A stretch of 64,000 nucleotides of DNA. It comes from Ascidia mentula. Taxonomy: Eukaryota; Chordata; Ascidiacea; Phlebobranchia; Ascidiidae. The position numbers were made by a program, and so were the translations under genes. The stretch lies in contig OX387198.1 in the NCBI GenBank assembly GCA_947561715.1, forward strand, positions 12,090,001 through 12,154,000. The letters are read 5' to 3'. Positions 431 through 64,000 of this stretch are shown piece by piece (the stretch's first letter is position 1; every line of letters starts with the position of its first letter). The notes under the pieces were generated by a model. The model saw only the letters and a list, made by a program, of their open reading frames with translations, made no database searches and had not been told where the DNA came from.

Positions 431-3400
431 ATGAATGGAAAGGAAATGGAAATGTGTGCAGATGGCAATTGTCAACAGAACAGTAAGTTTTGGAAGATGT
501 CATGTAAAACTAGCGCCCGGTTTTAAGTAGCAATATATTTAAAGATTATTATTGATGGCTTGTCTTTCTGATATCCAAACAAGCAATAGACATACCGCAC
601 AACGACAAATGCTGAGCAAAGTATGCACGAAATAACTGTAATTAGTGTTTGCCGTGTATATATATATGATTAAACCAATAATGCTTAACTGGAACTCTAC
701 GAGAAATAGTTGAAGTATAAGTATAATTAATTGGCCTTGTCCTGCAGTTTACAGTCAACAGGAAAAAATTTCAAACCTGAGCTCTGAATTGAAGCAAAGT
801 TTGAAGAATGTGAAGATTTTGCTGGTGGTGTTGGGTGCACTCATGTTGATTGCCTTTATAACAACACTCGCTATAGTAAGTAATGCATTTGGTGTAACGT
901 TCGTTCGAGGATGTCAGAAACGTTCTTTCGAAGTTATTATGTTCAGAGACAGGGCGATTGCAGTTGTGTTTTTGCAAGTTAAACAGCTTTTAAAACTTAC
1001 ATCTTCATAGTGCCATTCAACTTCGAAGTAAAAAACACAACAAAGTAAACTTTATTTTTGTCGATCACGTATCCTCAATGCAGACATAATATCCACTCCC
1101 CTTATGAGTCAAGATCACATTTTCTCATAAACATCATCGTCGTAGAGAGTTGTTGGAAATCTTAATCTAATTACGCGTTTAATATCGGCTGTGGGATGAC
1201 AAATCATTACAGAGTTTCGGATCCAACAAGTCGCGCGTATAATTGACAAGCAGAGGACCAAAAACGCATAAACTGCAATGATCGTGACCTGAATCTGGTG
1301 TAGTTGATTTAACGAACTAATTTTCTGTTTCAGCTCACGCCACAGATCTCTCAAATAAAAGGTAGGTGAATAAAAACAGAGATGTTAAACCGTCAGGTTA
1401 CTGGAATTTGTGCTTGAAAGCGATTGTTTGATATTATTGAAGAAACGTTTTTTAAGAACACTCGAACGTAATTAAGGATTTGATAACGATGGTTTAAGAT
1501 AATTTACAGAATCACATCCTGTTATATGACAAAAAGTATCAAATTTATTTTGCAGGTTTATTGCTCTATATGATATTAACATAAGATTGCACTGTTTAGG
1601 CCAGTTGAAAACAGATAAAAATGACGCTACAGAACAGACACAATTCTGGGGAAAAACTCTATCCTCCGTGCAAAGTATGGGAACAATTGGTTAACAGAAG
1701 GGATACACAAAAAGTGATGCGCATTGGTGCTTTGGGGCATGGGCAACCTCGCATAATGCAGAATTTCTATATGTCTATACATATATCATTCAATGTAATG
1801 ACCATTTGCATCAACCGCCTGCCGCTTGATATTATCCTTTTGCATTTTGTAAGAATTTGTTTCTTAGTTCGAAGTCCATTTTTTTCATTGAATGAGTGAT
1901 TTTGTAAGATTTCAAGAACACAAAAGTCTTATGGAAATGGTTGCTGCTAGAATTTTACGAAAACAAGAAGAACTGTGACCTTGTGTTTCAGGATTATTGA
2001 TTTCTAAATGACATAATGTTCTTCATTACAGGATTTGTTGTTATTTATTTCAGAAATTCTTGAGACCTATTTACCGACATTCACTACAGCGTTTCAGAAG
2101 TTGGAAAAACGCTTGCGCAATTCTACTCAGCTCTCTGGTATATCTGTCAAAACAACAAAAAAGAGTTTTGTTACTGATAGGTGTATGCGTACGCTAGGTA
2201 TACTAACACGCAACGCGAAAAAGGGCGATTTGTGCATAATGGCGAGATAAGTTTAATACCTTTAGTGGAACAAGTTCACCCTTTTATGTGGGACTATTCT
2301 GCATCTTCTATACTTAAGATGCTGCCAACAAACACCTTGAACAAATGAATGTAAAACTGGAGGAGTTAGAAGAAAAAGTTACTCAGTTGACGGCTTACCA
2401 CCAGGACCCTACGTCAGCCAAAGGTAGATGGGAAATTAATGTCACAAACAAATTGTTTAAAAACATTGGACAGTAATGTGTCGAGTATTACAGTTTTGTA
2501 AATCACTACATAGTAAAACTCACTTTAAGGCTGTAAAACGTAATGGAATTTGCACTCTTAATATAAATGTAGGTCCTAAGTCTTTAAAGATTGGAATGTT
2601 AACATAGTAAGCATTAAACTATGGATGGAAAGCTATTGTTTCGTCTTAGACAAATTGGAACTAGAGAGGTATTTATAAGCCATCAGGAAGGCCGCGGCAC
2701 TAACTTTTCCATCTTTCATTCCAAATTTTTACCGTTTTAAGTACGATGGCAGCAGCCAGAACAGCATTAGCAATGGCGGGCATGGGATGTACAACGAAGG
2801 AAATAGGGTAAAACACCTAACTTTATTTCTTTACTCTATAAACTAATACTACACTTTTACTGAAAGTTACAAGTTTTGAAAGACAGTCACCCACCAATAT
2901 CAATAAAATACAACGAAACGTACAGGTGAGTTATGACCTTATTTATAAACAGACAAGGGTCACAAAATTGTTTCATTCAGGGCTGAAGATGGATCGTTTA
3001 CCGTGACTTCTGTTACCGACCATCCGTTTATCTTGGCGATGTTAATCAGAAACCACGACCAACGTACTGAACACAGTTATTTTATTAAGGTCAGCTATGC
3101 CCCAAAAATTCCACCGACATTCTATGTAAACAAATCCACATTTTCAGGAATTGGGAAAATTGGGAGCTGAAGGTAGCGGAAGTTTCAGCATGCATTCCGG
3201 CTCGTTTTGGCAAGGTTCAATCCACTGTTCATACCGGATTTATCAGGTGTTTGGAGCGGACAGTCCATCCATCATTCAAGTATTTCTGAACATGTACAGT
3301 GTTGAGGTATGAACATATTCACAAATGCAAACCTTCCCACACATTATGTAGCTGAGAACGACATACTTAAGCAGATTAAACCTAATTTGTAATTATGTTT

Positions 3401-3542
3401 GTTGATTGCAGCTTTTTAAATCGACTGGGACGGCTACGTTGAGGTTTGAGGATTACAGCCGTGTGACAAATTACACTGATAACTTTGCAGAGGTATTCGG
3501 ACGATTTAGCAACCGATACTTCTGTTATTTTCTTGCTTCGGG
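431..3542 (+). pseudogene. Copy 1 of the stalk-receptor family, broken
   Basis: Exons read by hand: 431-482 (start MNGKEMEMCADGNCQQN), 748-875 (transmembrane, KILLVVLGALMLIAFITTLAI), 1334-1361, 1600-1674, 2054-2137, 2319-2423 (stalk coiled coil, e.g. LEQMNVKLEELEEKVTQL), then ectodomain exons B 2650-2807, C 2867-2925, D 2981-3089, E 3148-3306 and F 3412-3542. Phases agree at every junction and exon sizes match the other copies. Two defects suggest a pseudogene: an in-frame TAA at 2676-2678, where other copies read RYVRAL, and no terminal exon G before the Gypsy debris that starts near 3.7 kb. No exon A was found. The N-terminal exon, the helix and the stalk are otherwise open, so loss may be recent, or a short form ending in exon B could still be made. 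A sequencing error at the TAA cannot be excluded. Confidence 0.72.
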
Positions 3543-3710
3543 GTAAGTCTGTTCGCAGAGCAAAGCAGCATTTTTGAAACCTCCCTCAATCATAAAAATA
3601 TTTAAAACATGTTTAAACTTGACCATCGCATCATACAAAATTCCAACTGAACCACATACTTTTGTCTTCAAACCTCATACACAGTAAATCCATTGTGAAA
3701 TAAATATGTA

Positions 3711-5526: not shown

Positions 5527-5639
5527 GACGTGGGTGTCTGCAGGAGCTTTCCAACAGCCGACCTCAAAGCTGGCAATAGTCGACGCGTTGAACCAACAAA
5601 ATCAGCAGGCACAACCAACAGTAAAATGAGCGCTACAAA

Positions 5640-6846: not shown

Positions 6847-9800
6847 TTATGGTTTATAGATCGTTTGAAAGACTCGAATCAACTCAACTATAGCATCTTT
6901 TAGGGCTTGTGAACTCATAGGCTCAGATGGATACCTGAAAAACAAACACATTTTGGTTTATATGGATGTTTCATAATTATAGAGCTGCAAATTTGATCGG
7001 TATTTCTAGCTTCACACAGAAACTCTCGCAGCTATTGATCGACAGCCTGTCAGGGTTATACTTATGCCTTTTTTATTTATGGTTAATATGTATATCTGCA
7101 TGCGATAAAATAAATATACCTGAAATCCTACAGATCTCTGCGTGACGCAAAGTAAACATTCAGCAATATTTACAATACAAGTTTTTGGAATAATTATTTT
7201 AAAGGTAACACCGTAAACTGAAGCAATAATTGAATGCATTTGTAAGAATATTTTCCCAAAATTTGTCGGTACCGTTTTTAAAACTTTTCTCACCTCGAAG
7301 CTAAAATGTAGCACAAAAACCTATTGCTAAATTGACCCGTATAACGTGCAGTATTGTCAGTTTCACCTGTTCCTTCCTCGTTATCTGTTAAGTAAAGAGT
7401 ACTTCTCCCAGTTGATTGAAAAAGCTACAAAACAGTAATAGAGAACAGTTAATATTTTTCATGACATAAACAACCTATTACAGTAATACGTTGTTTGTCT
7501 TTACACTAATTAGAATAAAAACCGTTTTTGCAATTACAAATGTTTTATTTTATTTCTTGCCTCAGTACTGTAAAATGAAAGAAATATCTGTATTATGGAT
7601 GGATCAGGTGTTCCATACACTTGATATATCTGGTATGCAGAGGAGATTGAACCTTGTCTAAACGAACCGTGAAACGTTGAGTAATTTCCATATCCATCAG
7701 TTCCTAGGTTTCCCGATTCCTGAAATATAAAATAAGAAATAAAATGCTATCAATCATAAAATGTGCTGCCGTATAGTGGTTGTCAAAAACGTTGACGCGT
7801 CCACCTGGTGATTCTTCTGGTACGGTTTATAGACGAAAAAAAAATAATTTTATGTACATTGTTAAGCATTTTTTCAACAAATAATTTTCACGAAGTTTTG
7901 AAAAGTCAAGGTGATTAGCACCTTAATGTAAAAACTCTTTTCACTTTGCTGGTCTTTGTTTCTGATTAACATCGCCAATATAAATGGATGATCGGTAACC
8001 GAAGTAACCGTGAATGAATTATCTTCAGCCCTAGGTAAATACAAAGCAGTTTTAAAATTTGAATAAAAACGTTTCGAGACACTTCCTGACCCACCTCAAC
8101 ATTTTGTTGTATGTTATTGGTATTGTTTCATAGCAGTCTTTCCAAACAGTTAACTGGAAAAGAAACCAAACCAGATACAATTTGCAAATCAAAGCAGCAA
8201 TTTCAACAACAACAATTGCATTTTACAATCACTAGGTATACTGGTTTGTCAGCCAAGTTAGTTCAGTTTCTTTTTCGGAGCGTGATAGGAAAAATCATGC
8301 TCCCGGTGAGATTTGAACCAGACCCAACCCTGTACTGACTGAGATACAGGAGCGAAGCGTTTGTACAGGGTACGTTGCACTTTACATGATGCAGGGTAAC
8401 TCTACAACTATGATCAGGCAACGCACAAGTGTTTCATGCAACAGGAAAGATCGCCCCACTGCAGTTGTGCGTTTGCGCACCTGTCTGGGGCGACCCTGCC
8501 AGTCATGCAGTTGCACAGGATCGTGAGTTCTGACCTCACCGAAACCATCATTTTTCAGATCTCATTCTCAGACTTTGTACGTACCTTATTGCCGTTGTCA
8601 AACATGTCATGACCGCCGTCGCTTATGCTTTGGTTGTCGCTACCGTCGTACTTATACCGATAAAAATTTGGTATTGTTTTTGGAAATGATTTGGTTGCTG
8701 CCTTTGTTAATGCTCTCGTGAATCTGGCCAGTTTAAAATCACCTTACACAAAAATATACAAGAGTTTGTTAAATAAGTTAATATTCGGAAAAAGTCGCAT
8801 AAAGACCAACTGGTTAGTTTACGTTTTATGGACGACTCACAATCTTTTTGCGCCTACCTTGCAAAATACCCTCACTTAAAATTTTAAAAGACGTTTCCAT
8901 TTGAATCTGTAACATTTCAAAACCCTTAGTTGTGTTGCGAGATTTCTGAACCTCGCAACCTACAGAACAAAACGTTGATTGACGCCCAATTGGTTGCTAT
9001 CTTTTGCACGATTTGACATTCTACCGACGTCATTCTGGTAGTGATATGATTGCCGCATCTATCCAAATGATCTAAACGACGATCGTAGTGGTAATAATGT
9101 CGAGTTTAATTCAACTTTCGTTATCCTGATTTTAACATATTAGCCAATTTTCGGGAACACGTTTTATTATTAGTGTAGAAATCTGCAAGTCTTTTGTTCT
9201 TCATGTTCCTAAATATCTGTTACTCAATCGTTAATATTTTTGGTCTTACAACGAAAATTCCGAAAACACCATTATCGATTTTTTCCCGGTTTTGATTAAT
9301 ATAATATGCGTTATCCTGTCACTGAAGGATAAGGACAAGTATTTTAATGCTTATCAAATCTGCGGACTGAACTATGCGCTTTTTCACAACCTTAGATAGA
9401 AGCGGTAGTTACTATAGGGATGCACCGAAAGTTCGCCCAATTAGTTGATGCCTGTGCATGGTTTTTACCTTCCGTCGACTTGATTCTGGTGTGATTCCCG
9501 TAATTCGTCAGTTGATCTAAATAGAAATAAAGGTGGTTATTCTGATTTGAACGCACTGATGTACAGACTTAATTTATCATTTTCTAATTGTTTTAAACAA
9601 CAGAATGGTTAGTGCAAGGAATAAATCATTCGGAATGTTTTTTTATAGGTCACCCCGCAGTGACAAAATATCGATTTGCAAAGATCGAATGTCTTCCATG
9701 ATGTTGGCTTCATGCATCATTGGGGAGTCTGAAAGACAGTTCATGTTACACTCTTGTTATGTATGCTTTTGTTCACGTATACCTTTGATTTGGGAGTTTT

Positions 9801-10599
9801 GCATCCAAACCTGAAAAAAAAACACATTTAATAAAATGTATGCACTCTCTGCTTACTGGCTTAACCTTTTTAATCGCGAAATCTGATGACTTAAAAGCGC
9901 GCTTTTATTTGATTGGTGATCTTTCTTTCATTTAAATAATGCCATGCAAGCTCGAAACAACGGTCTTTTGTTGTTTCGTACATGTTTGTATTTACGTAAA
10001 GATCGTGACTGGCTAGAAAGACCAATTAATATGACATGGTCGATCGCTTATAGGCAGCACAAAAGTGGCGATGCAATTAACCAAACAACACAGTACAGTT
10101 ATGTAGCTTAAAGATCTTCTGGGTTTATCAAGAATCGCACACCTGAACAAACTCCGCATCAATATTTTTTTGTTTAGAGCGCCTAGATTGGTGGTTACAA
10201 AACACCATTGCGCGAGCGTCACGGGATCGTGAGACTCATAAAATGCACAATCTCCCCTATATTTCCATTTCTGAATAAACTATATGTTTCCATGTTTACC
10301 CTTTTCGTTTGGTGAATAAATATCGGAAACCAAACCCTCTTTTATACTTGGAGTACAAAGATGGAGTTACAAAAAAAAAACTTTAAACGCGTAATTAAAA
10401 TAACACCATATAGTGACCTTAAAAAGTAATGGTTTACTTACTATACCAAGTGTAGCAACACTCGTCATCAACATAACTGCACCAAACACCCCGAGCATAA
10501 TCTTCATACTCTTCAAACTTTGATTAAGTTCAGAACGTAACTTTGAAACCGTTTCATGGTCAACTCGAGGCTGCTGCCGTGGTGATGGCTCCTCATAAA
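6847..10599 (-). CDS. Copy W: stalk-receptor family, 5' exon unresolved
   Basis: Exons in transcript order: 10599-10442 (transmembrane, SLKSMKIMLGVFGAVMLMTS), 9810-9783, 9516-9469, 9071-9018 (short stalk), A 8959-8858, B 8742-8585, C 8153-8095, D 8030-7922, E 7719-7561, F 7424-7294 and G 6934-6847, ending FQTIYKP-stop. All phases join and no internal stop is seen. A predicted type II membrane protein with an extracellular C-terminal head. The first coding exon was not found. An in-frame ATG at 10660 would give 384 aa, but the equivalent region in copy Z looks intronic and differs by two bases, so a separate upstream exon is more likely. Oddities: exon E uses a GC donor; exon A lacks the cysteine found near its end in X, Y and Z and has one at its start; exon C gains a cysteine (KDCYE). 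The 54-nt stalk exon has a weak GTCAAA donor. Confidence 0.75.
8299..8353 (-). repeat. tRNA-like fragment, probably a SINE head
   Basis: On the minus strand a 55-bp stretch has ends that pair as a 7-bp acceptor-like stem (GCTCCTG with CGGGAGC). It has an A-box-like TATCTCAGTCAGTACAGG and a B-box-like GGTTCAAATCTCACC. It is too short for a tRNA because there is no anticodon arm. It lies in the intron between ectodomain exons B and C of copy W, followed on the + strand by GC-richer sequence (8360-8540) unlike its surroundings. A tRNA-derived SINE or tRNA pseudogene is most likely. Confidence 0.45.
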
Positions 10600-13422: not shown

Positions 13423-16400
13423 TTAAGGTTTATAGATCGTTTGAAAGACCCGAATAAACTCAACCAAGACAGTTCTCATGCTTGATGAACTCATATACGC
13501 GGATGGATACCTGAAACACACAAAATACATTTTAGTTTGGACATTATTACCTGTACTTATCATCACCCAAAATCTATTTCGCTCTGAGATTTGGGTCGCA
13601 ACCAAACTCTTATTGACGGTGAGCACAACAATCTGGTCATGCCTGTTTTCTTCATAGATTGGCATTTAAGTTATGCTACAGAACGATATTGAGCTTCAAT
13701 AAAAAAGTTGTTGTTAAAAGTTAGGCAGTATCAAAAGCACATGCCTATTAAATATATATTATATTCCTTTTCAGTTTGTGGTTCAGATCCTTTATTCAGT
13801 AAACGCTAGGTAGTCGGTTGTATAAGCTGAATAATACCTACCTTGAAGCGAGCATATAGCAGAAATATTGATTGTTGAAGCGGCCGGAAAGTCGTGCAAT
13901 GTTGTTTGTTGGATCTATACCTGGGCTGTTTTTGTTGAAGTAAAGATTGCTGCTTCCTGTTGAATTGAAATCCTGTAAATCAAAACATACTTTATTTACA
14001 TGACAGGACTAAAGCGATTTGTGGTGTTTTTTTTCAATTAAGTCTTGGTTAAAAGGATTTATTGAAATTTATGATGTAATTTCGTACATGAGTACTTGAC
14101 ATGCTTAGAAATATCTGTATGATGGATGGGTCGGATGTTCCATACACTTGATAAGTCCGGTATGATGAGTAGATTGAACCTTGGGTAAACGAACCGGAAC
14201 CCATTGCGTCTTGTCCAAGTCCATCAGTTCCCAAGCCTCCCGATTCCTGAAAAATTTTCTTTCTTTTAAGGCGTTTGTTGGAAAACTAGCAGTTCATTGA
14301 GCGCAGTGACCTGGCGCTGGTGTGTAAGCACTGTTGTTTGTGTATGAAAAGTGTTGGTATGGGACGCCACTTGATTTTTGCTATTATGAAGTCTTTTTTA
14401 TGGTGGTATTCCTGCCGTGATTTCCACCTGGCCAAGACAGCGATAAAATAACCGACACCATTAAACCAGGGAGGTAAGGCGCCAATTTTATATTGTCGGT
14501 ATAAGTATCAACCCGATATGCCACATTCAAGGTAAAGACTCCAAAATATACAAAACTAGAAATGACGCAACGCGGTTTGCGGTCCGCTGCTGCCGCAGGA
14601 AAGACACTTTTTAGATCGACCTATATAGGAAGTGAAATGTCGCTTACAGCTGCATCAACAAACAACATATGTTAGAAAGTAACAAACGCTTTCTTTCACT
14701 GCTTTATTTGAATTTACCCCTTGTTTTTGTTCCACTTAACACATAACGCACTTTATTATTCACTTGCTTCTGTTTTTTCCCCGCAATATCGTTTTATTAA
14801 GTTACTTTGTGTATTACTTTTTTCATGTTGTTTTAAATGTTCAAGTTAAAATCACAGAAAAAATATGGAAATATACTGCTAATAAAGTTGACAATAGAAT
14901 CAAAAATATTTTAGTATAGCGTGAACGAAACGGATTCGTACTTCATTTAATAATGTTCAGGCATTGCAGGCATACCTGGACTCAATGCCTACAATGCCTA
15001 GAATGCCTAGACTCATTGCCTAGACTGCCTACAATGCCGACGATGCCTCGACTCGATGACTACAAGCTTACAATTAACAAATGCCTACTTTTTCTGGCGA
15101 AGGTTTCCATTTAGCGAAGTCATGGTGAGTTGGCAGATCGTTTTAAAAAAGTTATGCGGCTTCTTATAAACTGGTGTTTCTCCATTTTTGTATGCCCTAA
15201 AAGTATCCAACTCGACAGGAAGGTTGGCAACATTTTAAGGCGATTTGCCGCACGGAATTTTTACCTCAATAAAGAAACTATGTTCACTTTGCTGGTCTTT
15301 GTTTCTGATTAACATCGCCAAGATAAATGGATGATCGGTAACAGAAGTCACCGTGAACGATCCATCTTCAGCACTGATAAATGGCATTGTATTAGTTGCA
15401 TCTGGCTACTAACAGCTGCTGACCAACCTGTACGTTTCGTTGTATTCTATTGATATTGCTTGATCGTTGTCTTTCCAAACTCGTAACTGAAAGCGACAAC
15501 AAAGTTTTATTCAATAAAATATTGCAAAAAATTGTGATTGAATTAAGTATTTAAATCAAATCCTTCACCTTATTTCCGTTGTCATACATGTCGTGGCCCC
15601 CATCGCTTATTCTGTCCTTGTGGTTACCATCGTAGTTAAATCGGTAAAAATTAGTAATTGAGTTCCCGAAGGTAATGTTTGCAGCCCTGCTGAGTGCTCG
15701 CACGTATCGCGCCAGATACCATTTGTCTTTAAAACAAAACGACAAAACACATTCTTTCTCTTTTAGTTACGTAAAGGTTCTGTAAGGATTTTGATCTAAT
15801 TTGTTTCAGGTGTATTTACCGAAATAAGCGAGATATAAGAACTGATGTAATGGTTTTGTGATGCTTTATTGCAATAGTGAACAACCACTACCTTTAATTA
15901 TACTCTGGTCCCAAACGCACGTTGCTAATTTGGAGGTCGCCGTTTCAATGGCTGAAACTATATAAATATCAACACTTTTTTATAAATGGCAACACTGTCA
16001 TACATAGTTTCATCATTTTACAGATTTACATATTTTTTTTCTATATTGAAGTATTTTGTACATACCGCTACAAACTCTATTTATCTTTATTCCATTCCGT
16101 AATGTTTCAAAGGACTGAGCTGTGTCGTTTTTGAATCTAGAAAGCTTACCTACACAACGTTAAGTTTATTGTCGCGTAAGTGCGAATTTGTGTGTGCATG
16201 ATATTGCAGTACCTTCCATTGACGCAACTCTGTCAGTAATGCGATTCCCGTAACTTTGCAGCTGATCTAAAGAGAAATAGTGGTGGGTACTCCATGGTAT
16301 GGACGCAAGTATTTGTTATTCTATTACCTTCAACACCAGTAACAGCAATTTGCAGGGTTTGCATTTTGTCAATCGTGGCTTCAACATAATCTTGAAACTC

Positions 16401-18173
16401 GTCTAAATAAACGAGAGAGTTTACATTGTGAAAAGTGAGTATTCGGAAGGTTGTAAGTTATCTTGCAGTGACAAAAACGCGTTTTGTGAAGATCGTCCGC
16501 CTTCTTAGCTGCGGGTTTCGTTCTTTAATAGCTCGTCTACAAGGCAATACATCTACCGAAAACAGCACATATGCACTGTTGTAGCAGTTAAAACGAAATT
16601 ACTTTTCCATGCATTTTTGGAAAGTTACTGCAACGTACTAAAATCGAAACTTGCCTTGGTTCAAGGTTACACTTTCCTGCATTGCTCTACCCTCCTGGGT
16701 GGCTTCTACATGATTTATTTCCACTTGACCTGAAAGTATGGTAAGGCTTTACTACACTATGTCATACTGCACAACAAACATTTGTATGTTTTATTTGCTC
16801 TTGAAACTGCGACCATCTGATGCTGTTCGGTGTTTACTGTGTTTGTTTCGTTCAGTTTTGCGTCATAGCCACACTTCCCGCGATTGTCTTTGACGATATT
16901 GTTTCTACTTGGTAGCAGAGATTGGGCTTCTAACACTTGAAAATTGTTGATCGGGGATCAAACACCGGTTTAACATAGGAATTAGTTTCACGGGCCGACT
17001 TTCCCAATGGCATGAAATAGACTAATGTCTTTATGAGGACAAAATATTGCTCATGTAATTTTATAATTGAAAAATATTGGTGGTTGGATGAAATGAGCAC
17101 TGTTCAATGTTGCAAGAAGTGTGTGGCAAACTTATTAGTTCGTACTTTCGGTACAGGCTGCATGCCAAGCACTCGCGAGCTCTCTATACAATCTTGTGCA
17201 TAATTTCTTGTTCACGTACCTTTGATTTGGAAGATCTGCATCAAAACCTAAAACATGCAATAATTAATGAAACAAGCGCATTTGCCAATAAATAAGCGAA
17301 CGTTTCAGTTTCACTGTTTCTCAACCCCAAAACTGATGACTTGTAGGTGCGGGTAATGGTCGATCGCAAAGGTAGCACAAAAGTGGCGATGCAAGTTAAC
17401 CAAACAAAGTTATATAACTTAACGAAGATCTTTGGGGTTTATCAAGAATCGCAGACCTGAACAAACTTTGCATCAATATTTTTTTTGTTTAGAGTGCCTA
17501 GATTGGTGGTTACAAAACTCCATTGCGCGAGCGTGAGACTCATAAAATGCACAATCTCCCCTATATTTCCATTTCTGAATAAACTATATGTTTCCATGTT
17601 GACCCTTTTCGTTTGGTGAATAAATATCGGAAACCAATCCCTCCAACATACTTGGAGTTACAAAAATGCGTAAAAAATTAACGCGCAATTAAAATAACAC
17701 CATATAGTGACCTTACAAAGTAAATGGTTTACTTACTATGCCAAGTGTAGCAGCACTCGTCATCAACATAACTGCACCAAACACCGCAAGCATAATCTTC
17801 ATACTCTTCAAACTTTGATTAAATTCAGAACGTAACTTTGAAACCGTTTCATGGTCAACTAGAGGCTGCTGCCGTGGTGAAGCCTCCTCATAAACTACAG
17901 CGTAAACCATTTAAGCTAAATCTTAAACATTGAAGATTTTTTGCTTTGGAAGCAAATAATGATCAAAAATATTTTTATTGTCGTGGAACATTTTGAGAAA
18001 CAAGATATATCTGTTCTACTTTTACCATCATACTGACGAGAGTTATTCTGTACAGTTAAGTCGACCAACGGTAGTAGGTTTACATACTTTTGGTAGAGAA
18101 TTACTTTAGTTATGCTAAATGTCTAACAAATAAACAGCTTACTGTTTTCATCAGGTATTGGACGAACCGACAT
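13423..18173 (-). CDS. Copy Z: complete stalk-receptor gene, about 402 aa
   Basis: Exons in transcript order: 18173-18143 (MSVRPIPDEN), 17894-17737 (transmembrane, SMKIMLAVFGAVMLMTSAAT), 17247-17220, 16729-16655, 16402-16328, 16266-16213 (stalk), A 16149-16066, B 15726-15569, C 15486-15428, D 15373-15265, E 14246-14088, F 13972-13842 and G 13510-13423. Summed length is 1209 nt, divisible by three, with no internal stop. A predicted type II membrane protein with a short cytoplasmic tail, one helix, about 77 aa of stalk and a head of about 260 aa. Head cores: ISDGGHDMYDNGN, SVTDHPFILAM, QVYGTSDPSIIQIF and QYFCYMLASR. An alternative start is the ATG at 17910 inside the second exon (MVYAVVYEE..., 397 aa). 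The spliced start is preferred because copies 1 and X use the same exon boundary and phase. Exon 16729-16655 uses a GC donor (GCAAGT). Z is a tandem relative of W. Confidence 0.82.
14955..15060. repeat. Short minisatellite, unit near 10 bp
   Basis: Imperfect tandem copies of an aatgcctaga-like unit, about ten, in the intron between exons D and E of copy Z. No coding role. Confidence 0.7.
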
Positions 18174-47120: not shown

Positions 47121-47335
47121 GCTTCAGTTATAGTGTAGCGTGGAAGCATTAAATACTCTAATGTGGGTTAAGGGCCTAGATTTCAGTTATGGTGTAGTCT
47201 GGAAGCATTAAATACTCTAATGTGGTTTGGGCCTAGATTTCAGTTATGGTGTAGCGTGGAAGCATTAAATACTCTAATGCGGGTTGGGCCCAGATTTCAG
47301 TTATAGTGTAGCATAATAACTTTATACTCTGTGGG
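47115..47335. repeat. Tandem satellite, unit about 61 bp, 3.5 copies
   Basis: Repeats of the phrase ttcagttatggtgtagc, followed by ggaagcattaaatactctaa. The last copy is diverged. It directly abuts the broken end of the third piggyBac-like copy. Confidence 0.85.
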
Positions 47336-49433: not shown

Positions 49434-49521
49434 ATACCCATCGGAGTCACTTGGTAATACCCGTTTGCGAGCTGGACTGATGGATTTTGTTCGAATATTC
49501 CAAACAATTTATATGCCTTGA
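49434..49521 (+). pseudogene. Orphan terminal exon G inside the palindrome loop
   Basis: The + strand has the acceptor acttacag and an 88-nt open exon reading YPSESLGNTRLRAGLMDFVR, then IFQTIYMP-stop. Size, phase and ending match exon G of all other copies, but the sequence is more diverged. No exon F lies upstream. It is a trace of a further family member that was otherwise lost. Confidence 0.75.
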
Positions 49522-51578: not shown

Positions 51579-53876
51579 TATTAGACGTTTTTAAAGATGA
51601 ATGGTTTCACAAAATCAACTCAAAAATAAAACTTAATCGCCCTTTATTGCCCATTATAAAGTAGGTGTTTTTAGGGCATATCGCCCCTGTTTCCACTAAC
51701 AGCGTGGCAAGCATGATAACCGTTATCAGTGCCGTTGCGTAAGGTCAGGTCGTTGCCGGCAAATTGCCTTAAATTTGTTACTATTCTTTTCTGCCGTTGT
51801 TCTGCCTTTTTTTTCCATCCACCCACCGCTTCTATTGGTTTTATTCAAGGCAGTTTAATGAACCTTATAGTTTTTGCTGAAGCCGACATTTGCTTACCCC
51901 GTCTTTACATCTGCAAAGTTTGTGAGTCTTTTTTTGCATTGACATTCTTATATTTATGTTAGTTTTGAAACGTGTTGTTTATGTGTTTTAGTGATACTGA
52001 TGATGCTTAAAAGCATAAATGAAATATGTACGATGGAAAAACCCACAAATGAAATATACACGATGGAAAAACCCATAAATGAAAACATATAAGTGAAAAG
52101 CCTTGTAAAACAAAATACTTGGTCTGTCGTAATAAATGCAGTAGTAATTTGACTCTGGCATATAAAAACATATCGTCAGCAAGTTAAAGGAAGTCAAACG
52201 TTGCTTTGTGCTCAACAATCAAAAATTATCGGAATATATTCACAATTGTCAATAGTTAATCTACAAAATGGGCATGATCGATCAAGCCTAAAACCAACAC
52301 AAATTTTCGTGTCTTTTATGGTTTATAGATGGTTTGGAAGACACGAATAAACTCAATCAGGGCAGTCCTCAAGCTTTGTGAACTTGTATATGCAGATGGA
52401 TATCTGAAAAAAAAACATTTTAGTTTAGACTTAATTATGTTTATTTCTTCAATCTCATATAAGAAGCCCGTTGCACTCAGATGTGGATCGCATTTTCTTC
52501 GTGTTTGAGGCAAACAGCAGACTTCGTCTGGCCTTTTTGGCGGGCGAGATGGTAGTATAGTCACTAACGCTACACTGATGAGACCTAACATGTAGAAACA
52601 ATGGCTCAACATGCAGCATAATTAAACATAGTATTGGCTTCATTGCTTTAGCAATAAAGTTGTGCTAATCTATAACCAAACATCCTACTGATTTCCAGTT
52701 TGTGTATTTTTTTCAGAATTTTCAAGCAAACACATTCTATCACATGCCAATGCACATGACCTCACTTGACAGCCTCCACTGTTATACCCAGCGAAAGGCC
52801 CTTAGGTAAGAAGATCTCTTGAAACATTTTGTTGATTATTAAATAAATTGCGCCAACTTAAACACGAAAATAGGTCGTATTGTTTACTTGGTTTTAACTT
52901 GAAACAAAAATATTAGTTTTTAGGAATTGCCTTTGTTTACGAACTGAAAAGCCAACACCAGAAAACAGCAGTGGCACATTTTTTTACAAAGCCCTAATTT
53001 TAATTCAATTAAAATGAATGCCACCTAACTAACAAAGAAAGTTATCCAGGTGAGCGTGGTCCCGTGAAACAAGAAATTACCACGGACTGTAAATAAAGAC
53101 AGACAGAAAGAAAGACAAAATATGTGTAAAGAAATTGCACGAATTCCATAAAACGTACAGACCTTAACTCTAACATTGTCGCCGTTTTGGGTTAAAACGT
53201 GCTGTTTAAATTACAACTTTTTGTCTGAGGGTCCATTTTATCTTACATTGATGTAGGTTTTAAATTGAAACAGGTTTAAATAGTCGCAAAAAAATTCTGA
53301 AGCTTATTTTTACACGTTTGTAATGTTTAATATTCCTATAGTATCATATATATGAATCAATTGGCAGTTTTGCAGGGCCTTTGGAACACTTGCACGACAG
53401 TAAAAAAATGGAAAAGTATTGGTCATATTTGTTCTGCATTATACACCGGTGCTATGTGAAGAGTCAAAATTTATTGCGCTTTCCTTTTTGTAAAGCAAAA
53501 TAAATTTTGGCCCAACAATGCTTTACGGTCGGACACAGCTGGTTTAGGTAACAAATTGTTGCAGTTAGACTGAAAACTTGTATTTGCAATAATACCAACC
53601 TTGAAGCGAGAATGTAGCAGAAGTATTGATTGCTGAATTGACCGGAAAGTCGCGCAGTGTTGTTCGTGTATCTTGTACCTGGTTTATTGTCTGTAAAGTG
53701 TAGAGTGCTGCTTCCAGTTGAATCAAAAATCTGCAGCAAACAATAAACAAGTACATCGTATACATATTAACATTTAACCAATGTGTAGTGTCTTTTGTTT
53801 GGATCTGGATAACAATATTTCCTGTTACTTCAACCTTTTTATACAATTTCTTACTTCAGTGCTTGACATGCTTAGA
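51579..53876. repeat. Copy Y partner of the 20.66-22.72 kb inverted repeat
   Basis: Contains exon E's last bases, exons F and G and the 3' flank of copy Y. The arm is about 0.2 kb longer than its partner through small gaps. At 52012-52082 there are about 2.3 copies of a 30-bp unit (aaatgaaatatacacgatgg...), while the partner arm has fewer. Confidence 0.8.
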
Positions 53877-56800
53877 AATATCTCTATGATGGATGGGTCG
53901 GATGCTCCATACACTTGAAAAGTCCGGTATGATGAGTAGATTGAACCTTGGGTAAACGAACCGGAACTCGTTGCGTCATGTCCAACTCCATCAGCTCCCA
54001 AGTTTCCCGATTCCTGAAGTCAGATATTTCTATCATTTTAATTGTTAGTTATAAAATTATTCCAATAAATGTGAGAGAGGCCATATTCGTCCATAAGAAG
54101 GGCAAGGATAGCATTTAACCCTTCTAAACAGCCAAAAAAGTACATAGAAAATAATCTATTTTCAAAACTATAATATTGAACAGCAGGTATCTGCAATATT
54201 ATATCAAATTAACTCCCCTTCGTTTGTTTGAAAATTATAAAATCATTCACCGACGGGTCTGCTCTATGCGGGTATGAAATGAACAACAAGCGTTTCCGCT
54301 ACAATTTACGAACTAAGTTATTCCAAATAACTTACTGTTAACAATTGCAACAGCAAAGCTAAATAAAACGTGATCTAACATAGCGGTAACATGCAGCATT
54401 AACAGCGTTCATAGGCGAACATTATAAACAGTGTTCTTTACTTAGGCTAGAGTGCAATGACCCAACGGTTCAGATTTGTCCAGCGGGCCGCAGTTTGCCC
54501 GTGTCTGTTGTGTACTCGATTGGTCTTGAAATTTTTATATACGACCTTTAAAATTTTTACATATAGCAACATTTGAAAATATTCGTAAAAATTTGCTTTT
54601 GAAGGACGATTCTTCAATAGGACTCAAACATTTATACCTCAATAAAAAAACTTTGTCCACTACGTTTTCGGTTTCTGATCAACATCGCCAAGATAAACGG
54701 ATGATCGGTAACCGATGTAACCGTGAACGATCCATCTTCAGCCCTGAATAAATACAAGCATTTGGCGAGTAAATAAAGCGTTCATTATTCTCCAAACCAC
54801 CTGTATGTTTCGTTGTAATGTATTGATATTGGTTGATCGCTGTCTTTCCAAACTCGTAACTGGAAATCACAACACTGTAGTAAGTTGTAAATGCAAAAAG
54901 ATTCGTTTTATTTGAATTCTCTTTACCATATTTCCGCGATCGTACATATCGTGTCCACCATCATTTATACTGTCATTTCGGTTACCATCGTATTTAAACT
55001 GGTAAAAATTTGGAATTGAAGTTTGGAAAGATCGAGTTGCAGCTTTACTGAGTGCTCTCACATATCGCTCCAATTCTCTTTTTTCTTAAAAACAAAACGT
55101 AAGTCAAGATGCACTGATGAGACTTCCCAGGTCGAAACAGCGGCTCCTTATGCAGCTCACTTAAAAATACCTTTACGCTTGGAACAGCAATTTATTCTTT
55201 TCGCATTTAATTACATCTTCCAGTATTTTCGTGTTTACATGTGAATCAATTAGGCTGTAATCCCATAGGCGGAAATCTGTTAACTTGAATTTTTTTTGGC
55301 TTAAATTTTTACACGTACCGCCGCAAACGCTTTCATTTTTTATTTTTCCAGAAGACGTTGTAGTCTGATTCTTTAAAGTTTCCATGACGTTCCTAAACCT
55401 TGCAACCTCACCTAAACAACAGAACATTGATGGTCGCTTAATGACGAGCGTTTCCTTGAATCTTGGTTGTTTATCTTTCACTGACGTCACACTGTTAGTG
55501 GTGCGCTTCCGTATCTCGTGAGATGATCTAAACCAGGGATTCTTAAACTAACAGGGCGCTCTCTAGGGTCGTGGAAGGTTGGCAAGGTGGAGCAAAAGTT
55601 TTGCAAAACCCGTCTAGCGACCAATCTATGATCTATTTAGTTTTTTTGTGTACCCAAACCTTTGAGCAAAGATTTAGCTGTTTGTCCGCAAAACAAACTA
55701 CGGGGTAACTGTTGATGCGATGTTTGTCATTGTGCAGACGAAAGTAGTTTTAACTTACTGGCTAGTGGTTTTGTATTTGTGAGGTGCAGCCTACATGCGA
55801 TGTGCATCGCCATTCACTAAACCACGCATTAAACACCTGGATTATGAAACAACTCTCATTTCTTTCGTTCTCTCGTTGGTGAGTGATATTACAAATAAAT
55901 AAAAACCTCTTTTTGAATTAGATTCCTTTGAGGGTTGGAAGGGGGTGCTAGATTTGATAAATAATCTCAGGGGGCGCGACTAAAAAAGTGAAAGAACTAC
56001 GCACTGATCTAATCTAATGTGGATGGGGTAGCGATAAATTTGGGCATGGAAATTTCTTACCTGTAACATAACTTTGCAGAGCTTGCATATCAGCGATGGT
56101 GCCATTTCGATAGTTTTCTAAGTTATCTGAATAAACAGGAAGTTTTGTGAGTAGAGTTAATCGTTTGTAAGTTTGGATTACAACGAAGTGAACATAATGT
56201 GATTTTCTGAGACAAAAACGTTTCAAAAGGTTTTTGCAGCCGTTTGCATGCAGTGTTACCCCCTGAAAAAGTCAGAACATTACCCTTAATAAGTGAATAT
56301 TAACTATACGTCTCAACGAATTCCTTTACACATTTTGCCCTACCTAATAATTGAATAAAACGTTAAAAGTAATATTTTTACCCTGTACGTAGGTTACGCT
56401 TCCCTGGATATCTCTCATACTTTGGTTGCTTCCATCCCGATGTATCTCCAGTTGACCTGAACGTAGGCTATGTATTTTACACATTACAAGATGTTTAATT
56501 TGTTACATTTTAAGTATATAATGCTTTTGTGCTTCAATATCAACAATGTTAGTATCTCTCAAGGGTTGTCAAAATAATCTCGTTCAATTATTCAACTTTA
56601 GATCCTTCGCCATTGCTGTGCTGGTGAAGATTTATTAAGGCCACTTAAAGGAAATATATTTCTTTATAATCCACAATTTCTAAGATATTCAACTGTGTTT
56701 TCAAGGTCTTGCTATACTGTTGCTCAAGGTTTAGTTTAATGTAATGTGTTGTTTTGATTATAAAAGTGTGACTTTAAACAGATTTTACACAATCAAATAA

Positions 56801-59800
56801 TTATGTTAAATCCATACCTGAATACTGCATTTTAACTTTAATAATAAACATGGCCCATTAATTCAACTTAGAATATTCAAGCATTGTTTAAATTTTAGGC
56901 AAAATCCAAGTATAATGACACATAACGAAGAATGTCTCCCATGTCACCAAAAGCATAGAAAGTAAAAATTAGGGTGTTGTCGAAATTTAATTTTGTTGGC
57001 GAAACTTAATTCAAGTTAATCGAATATTTGCATTTACCCCGTGTGCTTCACATTAGGACAAAACATAATATAATATTTTGCACATGTTTCAAGTAAATAC
57101 GGTCCTTACTTTGTATCAATGCTACACTTCTCTGAATTCCTTGAATTACAACTGTGGTTTCATTTCCACGAATTTCCATTTGACCTGAAAACAACATAGT
57201 CGGCATTTCCTCATCACCATTTTAATTTTGCAGACCTAGTGTAGCACAAATTTTTTTTTATCAGGAAAAAGGAGTAGTGGTATCACAGGTTGAGAAACAC
57301 TGATCTACAGCATTTCCGTTGTGATGGCAAACTCCCCTATGTGCTTTAATTGAGAATATTACAATCTTTTGAACAGCTTTCAGAAAACAAAGATCCTTAC
57401 TTTGTATCGATGTTAAACTTCCCTTTATGCCTTTCATCACAGCAGTAGACTCATTTCTATAAGTTTCCATATGGCCTAAACACAACATAGCAATACTTTT
57501 TGTAACTTTTTAACACCTTTTCACTATCTTTGTAATCCTATGATCCTTAATTTTTTGCGCAAATAAAACATATCAGTTATATCACTTCTCAACGCTTGGA
57601 TTTGTGAAGGTGTTGTCATTTGTTTCCGTAACGCGTTAATGTAGTGATATGTAGATTTTTGCTGACCTAAACAACAAGTTTGGTATGTTTATGTTTCGAA
57701 CGATGATGGCACAGTGATTAGTTATAACATAGTACCTTTTGTAGCAATAGTCCAAGAAATATAGCAATCTTGGACTATTAAACGGGGAACGTTTTAAACG
57801 GTTAGTGTTCAAGCGGGGTTTAATGACACAGGAAATGTTTGTATTCCTATTTTATTACTCTGAAATCTGGTTGAAAGTTTAGATTGATACATGGCCAATA
57901 ATACGTTGTTGCTAAAGGACGAATAAGTTTAAAGTAAAACGAAGTTCGTTCACATGCAAAACGCAGAAATGGAATCGTCCAACTGCAAAGTAACATTTTT
58001 GGCGATCTCCGTTGTGGAATTTTTGTCGTTAGGTTTACTAGCATCAAAGTCATGCAGAATTAGGCATACAAATTCACAAATAATAATCGAAATGGTCATT
58101 ACCTTGTATTGCGGACATATTTATCCGAATTTCCTGCATGTTCTGAGTAGTTTCATTTCGATACATTTGCATTTCGCCTAGACAAACATTGGCATAAATA
58201 ACTTTTGTAACAAACCAAATAACGAATCAATTATGAAGTTGTATCTGAATAAGACGCATTTTAAATCATTTAATCGTTGCGTTTACTGAAACTAAGGAAC
58301 TGACGATGCCCACAGGGCGAAATATATATTCCAAATATCAACCAGACTGACCCTGTTGTCAAAAGCTATTGCTTTGTGTGGATATAGTGCCATTACGGAA
58401 GTTACATAGCGATTGCTAGGCCAACATTTGCAGTTAAAACTTACCAAGGACATTTTCACTTTTTGCCGATTGAATTGTTGAAGTTGTGGACATATGTTTC
58501 TGCAACTCTTGTAGGTAGTGATGTGTAGCATTTTGCTGACCTAAATTCCAAGTTTATTGTGTTAATATTTCTCCATTGACATGTTCATGTTATGATAATT
58601 AGTTGCACATATTTATTTTTTCTGATTTGAAACTCAAATCAGAAACAATAGTCATGGAAAGGATGAGCCTGTGGGCGACAATTAAGAACAAACCGTGATA
58701 CAAAATTTTGCACAACATTCAGACAACAAAGGTCCTTACTCTGTATTGATGTTAAACGTCTCTGCATTCCTTGCATCAAAGTAGTACTTTTATTTTCGAG
58801 AATTTCCATTTGGCCTGAACACAACAAAGTTATCAAACATTTTTGTGACTTTTTAACAACTTTTTACTGTTTATTTATTCCCATGATTCTTTGTGGTTTA
58901 TAGGTAAAATTAATGGATATTATTACACTGTTACTACAGGAAGGAAAAAGTGTTTGTTTTCTAGTTTCATTACAACAGCGTTCCTTAAGTTACAAAATGC
59001 AGTAATGGAATCGTCAAACTGCAAAGCAACATTTTTTGCACACGTCCGTCATGGAAGTTTTTTTCAATAGGTTTATTGCCATCACATCCCACAGGATTAA
59101 CCCTTTAAGCGCCACGCCCTATAATCAACAATTGAAGATTTTTCATTGTTTAAGTTCAGGAAGCTATAACTTTTTATCTACAAACGCTAGACTAAAAAAT
59201 AAAACACAAAAATCATATACAAATTCATACTCTACACAGTCATCGCTTTTAACCACTCCTACTAAAATAGTTTCCAAGCCATAGGTACCCTATTTAAAAT
59301 TTCCATAACTCCCGAAATTGTGCGAATTTTAAAATAATTCGACTGTTGACTGAATCAGTGTGAACACCAAGACGCAATGAAGCGAAAAAACTGGGTCGCT
59401 GCATTTGATACAGGGTTGCCAGATTGGCGCTTTCGGCGCCAAATTCCCTGAATTTGGCTTTTTCCATTTTGTCTGGCGCGCAAAATTTGGTTTGGCTTAT
59501 TTGGCCCTTTTCTGGCGTTTTTCCTGTTAGCTTTGCGTTCGGAAGTTGCCCGGGCTCGTTCGTGACGAAACAGGTTCGCGGTATGCTCCTTTTCGATAAA
59601 AAACGTCACCCATCACAGCCCAAGCTAGTTCAGAAGCGTTGCAAACTGTATGCCTGGGTCGCGTAAACCAATGTCCACAGAAAACATTTCTATGACTTTT
59701 TCGTAAACTTGACTACTTCTTTAGTGACGTCATAATTTGAGTTTTGAAAGACTGTTTGTTAAAAGTTTGCGTAGCACTGGCACTGCTATGCACATAGAAA

Positions 59801-62800
59801 GACGGATATAATCCAAGAGCATAAATAAACAAAGAAGAGATTATATGTTGCTCTATCACATGAATGTAATTTGCCTGTAAATACAATTGAACATATGTTA
59901 GGGGAGCAGAAAATTAAACAATACAGTATTTAAACGATTGGCTCTTTTCTGTTTCACTCAAAACTAGTTTTGGCGATTTTTGGCGCTTTTTGGCGTTTTT
60001 TGTCGTGTTGTTTGGCTCTAAACAAAAAAAATATTCTGGCAACCCTAATTTGATATTTTTGAGCGACGGTACTGTCTAGTAAACTGAAATTTTAGGGAGT
60101 TATTTTGGTATAACCTACTTATACTGTTAGTTATTGCTTGTAAAAGGGCTTGTAAACTTTATAACACAGCTCAGGCGTTTGCTAACTGATAGCAGATGAA
60201 TTTGACAGCACTTCTAAAAAAATTTTTTTTGTTTGTTTCTTTTTGTGTTCAACTGGTAGTGTATGTCAGCAAGTTGATGAAAAAGAAGGCATAACATCAA
60301 TGTATATTGATAATTGAATAGACAAGCCTTCTACCAGTGCATATAAACCTTTTCCACAACATAACAGAGACAATGTAGAAAAAAAAACAAGGAAAAAAAT
60401 CAGTTGTATGAAATTGAAGCTACCCTAATTACTGGGTGACGCCCACAGCCACACCCACAACTGTTGGATACTTGAACAAATTGCATGAATATGGTTCCAT
60501 ATATGATGCTTTGATAGCAAATTATACATCAGGGATGTTACAGAGGTGACTGTGACATGACCAAATCATCATCATTGAACTTTTTGTGGTTCTGTTTTGG
60601 ATATACCCTTCCGAGAACAATTGGCGATTGTTATGCAAAGAAAAGAATATGAATAATTGAATATACAAGCCAACTACCAGTGTATAAGCCTTAGCCACAG
60701 CATGACAGAGACACTCTAGAAAAAAGACAAGGAAAAAATCAGCTGTATGAAATTGAAGCGACCGTATTTACCGAGTCACGCCTTCAACGACACCCACAAC
60801 CCTTTGATTCTTGAACAAATTGCATGAATATGGTTCAATATATGATGCTTTGATAGCAAATTATGCATCAGGGATGTTACAGAGGTGACTGTGACATGAC
60901 CAAATCATCATCATTGAACTTTTTGTGTTCTGTTTTGGATATACCCTTCCGAAAACCATTGGCGATTGTTATGCTGAGGAAAGAATTACTCAATTGTCTA
61001 TTGTCCGGAAAGCAAAACCAGTGTTATGGAACCAGAATAAAAACCTGTAACTATAAGTAATGAAGGTGTTCATGTTATGTACATTTGTTCCTGCTATTTT
61101 GTTGTTTTGTACGCAAAAAATACAGCAATACCACCAGTCAAAATTTGCATGCGCACATCTCGCCATTGTGACGTCATAGAAAGAAACGGAAACCGCCGAT
61201 CGAAAGCTGAGACCCTCGCGCACAATTCGTCTGTAGAACGTTTCGCGCTACTCCCAACGGGTAGTTGGCCATTTAATTGGACATGCAATCAGACCACCTG
61301 CTGTGCTGGTTTGTTCATAATGATAATCATCATCAAATGAATGACTAATTAGTCAAAAAATTTCAATGCAAACGTATTTTTTTGTTTCTTTTTTCAATAA
61401 ACTTCACGCTTCAAGTTGTCTGTTGCTGAAAACCTTATGTCTCTAGGCCAATCACAACGGAATTGATAATTAATCAAAAAAAGCACCTCTTTGGGCCTTA
61501 AGTGGCCCGTGGCGCTTATGCATGTTCTGAGTAGTTTCATTTCGATACAATTGCATTTCGCCTTGACACACATGGCATAAATAACTTTTGCAACAAACCA
61601 AATAATGATTCAATTATGAAGCGGTTAAGATATTTTGTAATTTTAGTATAAAATATTTTTTACTGCCACATTATTGTGGTTCAATTGTTTCCATAAAACT
61701 TCTTTTCCTTTTTGTGCCATTCCCTGGCATATTTACAACATGGCAAATGTTTGATTTGTAGTTTGTTAAACATCGGCAAGTGCGTTTGTTCTTCCTTTCT
61801 GAGCGATAAGGTCATGCTTTGCAAGGAGTGTGACAGACGTGGAGGGTTATGTGATAATCAAATGCTGGTAACGAGGGTATGGCGCCCGGGCATCCTTGCG
61901 ATTAGGGATCTTTTGTGCAAGCACGTTTTACTTCCTGATTCATAAAATTTATATGGGACAGAACTGTTGCATAGTTAAGGCAGTCGTGCCAACGTCTGGA
62001 CAGCAATCGCGACGCGGATATCTGGTTATATATCTGCTGTGGTTTGAAGCAATTTCATGGATAACAAACAATCGTTACAAACATTGCTCTCAACATGAAA
62101 CCGTTAAAAAACTAGCCTTTTTTACGAAAAAAAATATTTTTTTATTCTAAATATAAACCATATCATATTGCTGTACACGAAAATTGTGAATGTCTGCCTT
62201 CGTTAGGTAACCCATACCTTGCATTAAACTTAGATTTTCTTTAACTTCTTGCAACTTCTGAGTAGATATGTTTTGATGTATTTTCAATTCACCTAAACAT
62301 AACGTGATGTGTTTTATTGCTTTGAAAAGTCAAGGAAATACTAAATGGAATCGTCAAACTGAAAAGTAACATTTTTGGCGATCCCCGTTGTGGAATTTTT
62401 GTCGTTAGGTTTACTAGCATCAAAGTCATGTAGAATTAGGCATACAAATTCACAAATAATAATTGAAATGGTCATTACCTTGTATTGCGGACATATTTAT
62501 CCGAATTTCCTGCATGTTCTGAGTAGTTTCATTTCGATGCATTTGCATTTCGCCTAGACAAACATTGGCATAAATAACTTTTGTAACAAACCAAATAACG
62601 AATCAATTATGAAGTTGTATTTGAATAAGACGCTTTTTGAAACATTTAATCGTTGCGTTTACTGAAACTAAGGAACTGACGATGCCCACAGGGCGAAATA
62701 TATATTCCAAACAACAGCCAGACTGACCCTGTTGTCAAAAGCTATTGATTTGTGTGCATATAGTGCCATTACGGAAGTTACATAGCGATTGCTAGGCCAA

Positions 62801-64000
62801 CATTTGCTGCCTGTGGTTTATATCTAAATGTTTTAATATTTGAAGTAATTACAATGGAGTTTGTTCAAACCTGTTGGTTAATATTATGTGCAGTTAAAAC
62901 TTACCAAGGAAATTTTCACTTTTCGTGAATTGAATTGTTGAAGTTGTGGACATATGTTTCTGCAACTCTTGTATGTAGTGATGTGTAGCATTTTGCTGAC
63001 CTAAATTCCAAGTTTATTGTGTTAATATTTCTCCATTGACATGTTCATGTTATGATAATTAGTTGCACATATTTATTTTTTCTGATTTGAAACTCAAATC
63101 AGAAACAACAGTCATAGAAAGGATAAGCATGTGAGCGACAATTAAGAACAAACCGTAATACAATATTTTGCACAACATTTAGATAACAAAGGTCCTTACC
63201 CTGTATTGATGTTAAACGTCTCTGCATTCCTTGCATCAAAGTAGTACTTTTATTTTCGAGAATTTCCATTTGGCCTGAACACAACAAAGTTATCAAACAT
63301 TTTTGTGACTTTTTAACAACTTTCTACTGTTTATTTATTCCCATGATTCTTTGTGGTTTATAGGTAAAATTAATGGATATTATTACACTGTTACTGCAGG
63401 AAGGAAAAAGTGTTTGTTTTCTTCTAGTTTCATTACAACAGCGTTCCTTAAGTTACAAAATGCAGTAATGGAATCGTCAAACTGCAAAGCAACATTTTTT
63501 GCACACGTCCGTCATGGAAGTTTTTTTCAATAGGTTTATTGCCATCACATCCCACAGGACTAAACCATTTAAATTTACAAGTTTTAATTAAAATGGTACT
63601 AACTTTGTAATGCAGATGCATATATCCGAATTTCTTGCATGTTCTGAGTAGTTTCATTTCGATACAATTGCATTTCGCCTTGACACACATGGCATAAATA
63701 ACTTTTGCAACAAACCAAATAATGATTCAATTATGAAGCGGTTAAGATATTTTGTAATTTTACGAATGCACTTTTTGTTTAAGTTGTCAATGCTGTGAGG
63801 ATTTAAATGCTTTGCCACACAATCAGAAGTTACTCACCAATCACAAAATTCTGCAATGCTTGAATTTGTGTAGTTGTGGCCATCTGTTGAATTTCACGAT
63901 ATGAAGTATTCTGAAAACTCTCCATCTTTCCTAAAGGGCAAGTATAAAATATTTTTTACTGCCACATTATTGTGGTTCAATTGTTTCCATAAAACTTCTT
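52316..64000 (-). CDS. Copy Y: long stalk-receptor gene, 5' end beyond window
   Basis: Head exons: A 55411-55319 (ESVCG), B 55075-54927, C 54859-54801, D 54743-54638, E 54013-53855, F 53730-53600 and G 52403-52316 (FQTIYKP-stop). Stalk exons from the right edge: 63930-63838, 63678-63604, 63274-63200, 63000-62905, 62553-62479, 62292-62218, 61561-61519 (truncated), 58814-58740, 58540-58445, 58177-58103, 57666-57574 (AT donor), 57475-57401, 57184-57110, 56456-56382 and 56126-56061. All intact ones are phase 1 at both ends. The head is closer to Z than to X, while the stalk is a duplicate of X, so Y looks like a fusion of a duplicated stalk with a different head. It lacks the 1.3-kb array. No stop was found in the head. 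N-terminal and transmembrane exons should lie beyond 64000. Confidence 0.75.
55499..55530 (-). pseudogene. Decayed short stalk exon in copy Y
   Basis: After a good acceptor (ggtttag) the minus strand reads HLTRYGSAPLT and then a stop. It resembles the QLQSYGNRIT exon of copy Z and QLTNYGNHTR of copy W. It has no in-phase donor, so it is probably skipped. It shows that Y's head end descends from a W/Z-type short-stalk gene. Confidence 0.5.
57574..57666 (-). pseudogene. Stalk exon with GT-to-AT donor, copy Y
   Basis: Same sequence defect as 37611-37703 in copy X: the donor reads ATATGT after the last exon base. It is shared by both duplicates. Confidence 0.6.
59101..61518. mobile_element. piggyBac-like element, copy in Y, right end lost
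   Basis: The left end is intact: TTAA at 59097-59100, then CCCTTTAAGCGCCACG. It lies in the same intron as the 39140-41540 element. The right end stops at ggcgctta, lacking the last GGG and TTAA, and is joined directly to the middle of a stalk exon. It carries the same nested hAT-like MITE. Confidence 0.88.
59411..60047. mobile_element. Nested hAT-like MITE, copy in Y
   Basis: Same insert as 39454-40081, with ATTTGATA at 59403-59410 and 60048-60055. The last base is A instead of G, and one extra ttttggcg-like repeat unit is present. Confidence 0.85.
61519..61561 (-). pseudogene. Stalk exon truncated at the transposon edge
   Basis: The acceptor and the first 43 nt of the exon matching 41656-41582 remain (EMQLYRNETTQNMQ). 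The rest of the exon, its donor and the transposon's outer end are deleted. With no donor it must be skipped, or splice into transposon sequence. Confidence 0.75.
63551..63578. other. Paralogous empty site of the piggyBac-like insertion
   Basis: Reads cccacaggaCTAAaccatttaaattt. In copy X the same flanks are separated by TTAA-element-TTAA. This block was duplicated without the element, or before it arrived, and one target base then changed (TTAA to CTAA). Confidence 0.85.

Follow-up and report, generated by a model that had tools for sequence, protein, structure and literature searches.

What kind of protein is encoded by a run of look-alike genes whose middle exons are repeated many times over? 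The question is raised by a 64,000-nucleotide (nt) stretch, here called the window, of the ascidian Ascidia mentula (contig 2, OX387198.1, positions 12,090,001-12,154,000, in a 196-Mb assembly of 79 contigs). An earlier note, made from the letters alone, described here five gene copies and at least four orphan exon sets of type II receptors, each with a short N-terminal exon, a transmembrane (TM) exon, a modular coiled-coil stalk, and a head that it did not recognize. We find that the copies belong to a large family whose heads are under constraint and are homologous to modules of phage and bacterial proteins. With moderate confidence, we read its members as recognition receptors in which the stalk would present the head as a binding tip.

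Gene copies in the window

Peptides read from the window were used in tblastn searches and then in a custom spliced protein-to-DNA aligner, and both methods together located five heads (Table 1), in line with the five copies proposed before. The head cores quoted in the earlier note are present in these copies, but the spliced alignments give a head of six exons and not of seven. The orphan exon sets stand in part: two are clear (20805-21993 and 49432-49518), while the other three matches are weak.

Table 1. Members of the family and their parts within the window
Feature	Positions	Strand	Remarks
Copy X	431..3540	+	N-terminal exon 431-482 (picked by eye); TM exon 748-875; pieces of the stalk; head exons
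Head 1 (copy X)	2679-3540	+	five exons, last exon missing
Copy at 7-10 kb	6850..10599	-	TM exon 10599-10442, head 8731-6850
Head 2	8731-6850	-	six exons; poor fit at joint of exons 4/5
Last-exon fragment	11077-11009	-	weak, E 1e-4
Gene Y	13423..18173	-	complete hand-built model, 14 exons, 1269 nt, 422 residues
Head 3 (gene Y)	15730-13426	-	six exons
Orphan fifth and last head exons	20805-20954 with 21904-21993	+	clear
Longest gene	25278..44278	-	likely TM exon 44278-44118, candidate stalk exons 42810-27057, head 26932-25278
Head 4 (longest gene)	26932-25278	-	six exons
Stalk-exon array	27859..35964		~1.3-kb units, 86-97% alike, carrying stalk exons
Orphan fifth-exon match	48810-48941	+	weak, E 4e-4
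Orphan last exon	49432-49518	+	clear, E 7.6e-8
Fifth-head-exon fragment	50685-50617	-	weak, E 8e-4
Copy at 52-64 kb	52319..63930	-	12 candidate stalk exons 63930-55319 (score >=45 in 10); head 55085-52319
Head 5	55085-52319	-	six exons

The plan of the family is clearest in gene Y, whose coding length includes the stop codon and contains no internal stop. Its N-terminal exon, which was picked by eye, exits in phase 1; the TM exon then runs from phase 1 to phase 0, a mini-exon from 0 to 1, and the stalk exons from 1 to 1, which agrees with the phase-1 exit of the first exon and the phase-1 stalk exons of the earlier note. The acceptors are AG, and 12 of the donors are GT and one is GC. The protein would contain a helix at about residues 46-66, a stalk of five exons (residues 73-188), and a head from about residue 189. 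As hydropathy reveals a single hydrophobic helix, a type II topology is predicted.

Copy X carries an altered head motif (NGGHGMYNEGN), and because its last head exon is also missing, it is probably a decaying gene. No start exon was found for the copy at 7-10 kb (6850..10599, minus strand), and no TM exon was found inside the window for the copy at 52-64 kb; the latter exon may sit past the window edge.

A stalk of interchangeable exons

Each stalk exon enters and leaves in phase 1 and has a length that is a multiple of three. A search with seeds taken from the window itself returned 23 candidate phase 1-1 exons (1935 nt summed) in the longest gene, which ends at 25.3 kb, at a score cut of 30. 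With the cut raised to 45, the region from 26.9 to 48.5 kb yielded 15 exons on the minus strand, none on the plus strand, and none in any of five Markov shuffles. The controls reached 27-30 at best; eight stalk exons scoring 31-36 therefore barely exceed them and are supported by their repetition rather than by their score.

Two properties of these exons agree with the coiled-coil, glycosylated stalk of the earlier note. First, an N-glycosylation sequon is present in all 22 of the 23 longest-gene exons that were tested, and in 17 of the 17 distinct ones versus 4.5 expected under shuffling; the stalk of gene Y has one sequon only. Second, a hydrophobic period of ~3.5 was matched by none of 2000 shuffles for the 17 distinct longest-gene exons, by none of 2000 for P0001 (a protein of the ascidian Phallusia mammillata, see below), and by 27 of 2000 for gene Y, although the strongest single period in the longest-gene exons taken alone is 3.00, not 3.5. 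Because stalk exons are copies of one another, the counts behind these statistics are not independent events. The stalk is predicted to be an N-glycosylated coiled coil.

The stalk region grows by duplication, given the ~1.3-kb repeats at 28-36 kb and a further pair of segments (36.1-41.5 kb and 56.0-61.5 kb) with 97.9% identity. Tandem Repeats Finder, run with periods of up to 500 bases, did not pick up the 1.3-kb array. Recent duplications are supported, and the array shows a protein in the course of being lengthened exon by exon.

Family size and constraint on the heads

A genome search gave at least 176 exon matches, with 150 of 233 candidates scored. The genome-wide count proposed in the earlier note comes to at least 34 head-start exons (by hand, among the matches listed) in one 388-kb cluster on contig 2 (11.967-12.355 Mb), three of which are weak with an in-frame TAA, plus 20 more head starts in six further stretches, several of them modelled partly. 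These 20 are divergent heads (L039-L044) at four other places in the genome (C1:18.50, C1:19.76, C2:5.17-5.21, and C70:7.56 Mb). Upstream (5') of the distant paralogs, a look for a membrane helix gave several hydrophobic frames, none linked to a gene.

Substitutions were compared among 19 heads, which remained after four partial ones were dropped from the 23 sources modelled (18 loci and the five window copies). For 169 of the 171 pairs, the mean non-synonymous divergence (dN) is 0.245 and the mean synonymous divergence (dS), which is partly saturated, is 0.96, a ratio of means of 0.25. Among the 16 closest pairs, dN/dS is 0.24-0.66 in 13; in the other three, changes are too sparse for a judgement (non-synonymous:synonymous 5:0, 2:1, and 0:1). 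Diversifying selection across the head as a whole is not seen in dN/dS averaged over the 19 heads. The heads are under constraint with some relaxation, and they carry no average arms-race signature. This constraint, together with the existence of a Phallusia protein of equal plan, argues that the family consists of real genes.

The head at locus L020 and that at 52319-55085 in the window differ by one residue over approximately the first 110 and are then clearly more divergent, a pattern suggestive of gene conversion or of a mosaic.

Relatives of the head in phages and bacteria

A protein search with the 422-residue product of gene Y returned P0001 as its sole match. A profile was made from 13 heads, in which one row (L042) joins a tblastn exon to a spliced model and another (L043) has ~13 residues absent from the locus; the clean ascidian profile consists of the 11 rows without these two. 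The 13-row profile underlies the protein-database search and the 13-head Pfam scan, while with the clean rows the tree, the profile comparisons, and the search of PDB all hold.

The 13-head profile found 35 proteins, namely a second Phallusia protein and 34 that are unnamed or hypothetical. Relatives are also encoded on 60 viral contigs of IMG/VR (31 distinct open reading frames after filtering) and at 63 loci in GTDB genomes of bacteria; three queries gave no match in INPHARED. Compared by hhalign, the clean ascidian profile is homologous over most of the domain to 17 phage rows (E 7e-25) and to 20 bacterial rows (E 1.8e-18); between the phage profile and the bacterial one, E is 3.9e-21. All share a signature, I-x-DGGxDMYDxGN followed by a GxxGADGxG loop and DP, in which the Asp and Gly positions are invariant or nearly so and from which copy X deviates. 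In alignments a C-terminal helix follows this signature in ascidian, phage, and bacterial members alike. The head is given the working name DGGxDMYD module, and its conserved Asp and Asn residues may form a calcium or ligand site.

In phage proteins the module is often C-terminal. On one viral contig (L060) the module protein comes after an 809-amino acid (aa) protein with tail-fibre PHROG matches, which lie on a repeat-rich protein and may be explained partly by composition. On another (L045), virion-structural and tail-fibre-assembly PHROGs are matched by two proteins close by, along with families of unknown function. Among the other viral neighbours scanned, DNA polymerases (L084, L053) and GroEL (L062) were recognized, and three gave no match. 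Some viral proteins of 555-1239 aa (L083, L100, L102) have the module internally or near the N-terminus. In bacteria the module is internal to large secreted proteins, in frames that range from ~460 residues to over 2,700, and the companions in seven scanned proteins include subtilase, TSP3, SdrD_B, and T9SS sorting domains. When 20 pieces of bacterial modules were scanned, six families turned up, none of them in more than one member; these are taken for neighbouring domains, since the best companion-domain stretches in the seven scanned proteins leave the module uncovered.

A tree built from 133 of 169 sequences places the 14 ascidian heads in a single clade (support 0.957). Its sister is the metagenomic protein P0005 (0.931), and both lie within a group of viral and metagenomic sequences (0.971). 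With the clean rows (12 heads) the corresponding values are 0.947, 0.925, and 0.975. Support is poor (0.352) for the group of bacterial modules, which has one phage sequence among its members; two phage sequences fall outside the viral group. Given the midpoint root and the few eukaryotes included, transfer from viruses is put forward only as a possibility. A fuller scenario, which we consider rather unlikely, is that a chordate lineage acquired the tip with which a viral fibre binds its receptor, mounted it on a glycosylated stalk anchored in the membrane, and multiplied it to over 50 copies that together serve to recognize surfaces.

Curated families and predicted fold

The earlier note did not recognize the head as a named domain, and this is upheld as far as curated names go. 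There is no match above the cut-off in curated Pfam (two heads, 13 heads, and 10 of the found proteins) or in curated NCBIfam (one head), and none to PDB sequences at E <= 1 with the clean 11-row profile. Weak matches to DUF4369, Rax2_2, and DUF7244 involve one or two members each, and the two with printed cut-offs fall below them. PHROGs gave no match over the head domain in nine found proteins; P0005 has a weak tail-fibre match in its N-terminal part, and in P0001 the helix and coil are weakly matched. The head is not peculiar to this family, though; it makes up the animal branch within a broad domain, apparently unnamed, that viral and bacterial proteins have as well.

The fold is predicted to be a beta-sandwich of ~200 residues with a weak likeness to the sandwich domains of sugar-active enzymes: for the models of two members, the top structural rows are sandwich domains of glycoside phosphorylases and hydrolases. 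A fold of the supersandwich, galactose-mutarotase-like kind is a candidate for the head. No family was named by the fold searches, which cover only the families present there. The profile and structure searches suggested in the earlier note have thus yielded homologous phage and bacterial modules and a weakly enzyme-like sandwich, though no curated name. This would be a widespread extracellular domain without an entry in the curated libraries searched, and one solved head structure with ligand would inform the animal, phage, and bacterial proteins together.

What the proteins may do

If these genes encode recognition receptors, their products would be single-pass type II membrane proteins. A short N-terminal part in the cytoplasm and a single membrane helix would be followed, outside the cell, by an N-glycosylated coiled-coil stalk assembled from interchangeable phase-1 exons (~116 residues in gene Y and up to ~645 in the longest copy), with the beta-sandwich head at the C-terminal tip. 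The coiled coil would most likely drive oligomers, and the head would most likely bind a ligand, as its homologue in phage proteins may also do. The ligand might be a glycan or a glycosylated surface, whether of microbes, of gametes, or of other cells; we infer its kind, as well as any outcome of the binding. The part in self/non-self or pathogen recognition suggested in the earlier note is a conjecture here, in an analysis that covered one genome. Several observations favor this reading: the consistent phases of the gene Y model and the absence of stalk exons from the opposite strand and the shuffles; the sequon-rich stalk with its coiled-coil-like period; the joining of helix, coil, and head in one chain in P0001; the homology of the head to bacterial modules and to phage modules, two contigs of which have tail-fibre-type neighbours; the sugar-active-enzyme sandwich domains that rank first for the models of two members; and the constraint on the heads. 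On this evidence a chordate receptor-like family is tied to phage proteins by real homology, and it may offer a large set of candidate receptors for research on tunicate immunology or fertilisation.

Alternatively, the proteins could be structural: at the cell surface, in the tunic, or in the egg coat they would act as glycosylated spacers or anchor the matrix, and their copy number would reflect dosage and not recognition. Average constraint on the heads rather than diversifying selection would suit this role, as would sequon-rich stalks of variable length and the occurrence of relatives inside bacterial proteins of large size that also contain TSP3, SdrD_B, and sorting domains. However, heads within one cluster differ strongly (the mean dN above), and the conserved motif is common to phage proteins, some of which adjoin tail-type genes. 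We regard a structural role as rather unlikely. It is considerably less probable that the cluster consists mostly of decaying duplicates without function. Such decay would fit the altered motif and missing last exon of copy X, the orphan exons, and the transposon-like sequence nearby, but four of the five window heads and most modelled loci have all six exons without stops (the aligner penalises stops), and dN/dS is below 1 in the 13 judgeable close pairs. Least probable of all is that the head is an enzyme or enzyme remnant, a divergent relative of the sandwich domains in glycoside phosphorylases and hydrolases, even though such domains provide the best structural rows for both models.

Comparison with known systems

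For the receptor reading, the nearest named protein is the product of Phallusia mammillata LOC100175507 (P0001, P0002). P0001 combines a helix, a coiled-coil region, and a head within 374 aa, and is 44-45% identical to the heads here over the head. Unlike the Ascidia family, it was read as two records and not as a long-stalked cluster. The uncultured-phage proteins share the DGGxDMYD module but have no membrane helix or intron-built stalk; in the bacterial multidomain proteins the same module is internal rather than at the tip of a stalk.

Two sets of ascidian receptors bear comparison. The CD94-like type II C-type lectin receptors (PMC5465252) likewise have a type II plan and a C-terminal binding head, but that head is a C-type lectin domain, whereas Pfam scans of our heads and of full-length P0001 detected none at E <= 0.1. 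A weak Lectin_N match in P0001 is below its cut-off and located over the coil. The fester family and FcoR of Botryllus also comprise ascidian receptor genes in multi-copy clusters with turnover of gene content, for which a role in allorecognition is supported by work on Botryllus; they are type I with Ig and sushi domains (PMC12065747). Gene Y, in contrast, is predicted to be type II, and neither Ig nor sushi domains appeared in Pfam scans of the heads or P0001. Among titles and the beginnings of abstracts, no paper on this family was found, and none for its motif strings or LOC100175507.

Other sequences in the window

Among the receptor copies lies the end of an acyl-CoA-ligase-like gene, recognized by an AMP-binding_C match (E 1.4e-10) in the open frame 11927-12538 (plus strand). 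An Rfam scan of the window gave no match. Transposon-like frames adjoin the broken copies at 3711-5601 and 47931-48515 (both minus strand). The first includes a weak Integrase_H2C2 match at 3711-4043 (minus strand; E 2.9e-5, under its cut-off); the remaining frames, which have no Pfam match, resemble the ends of retrotransposon polyproteins by eye only. Finally, a dispersed repeat of ~0.9 kb, with copies 96% alike, occurs in both orientations at 40202-41106, 46238-47123, and 60168-61071.

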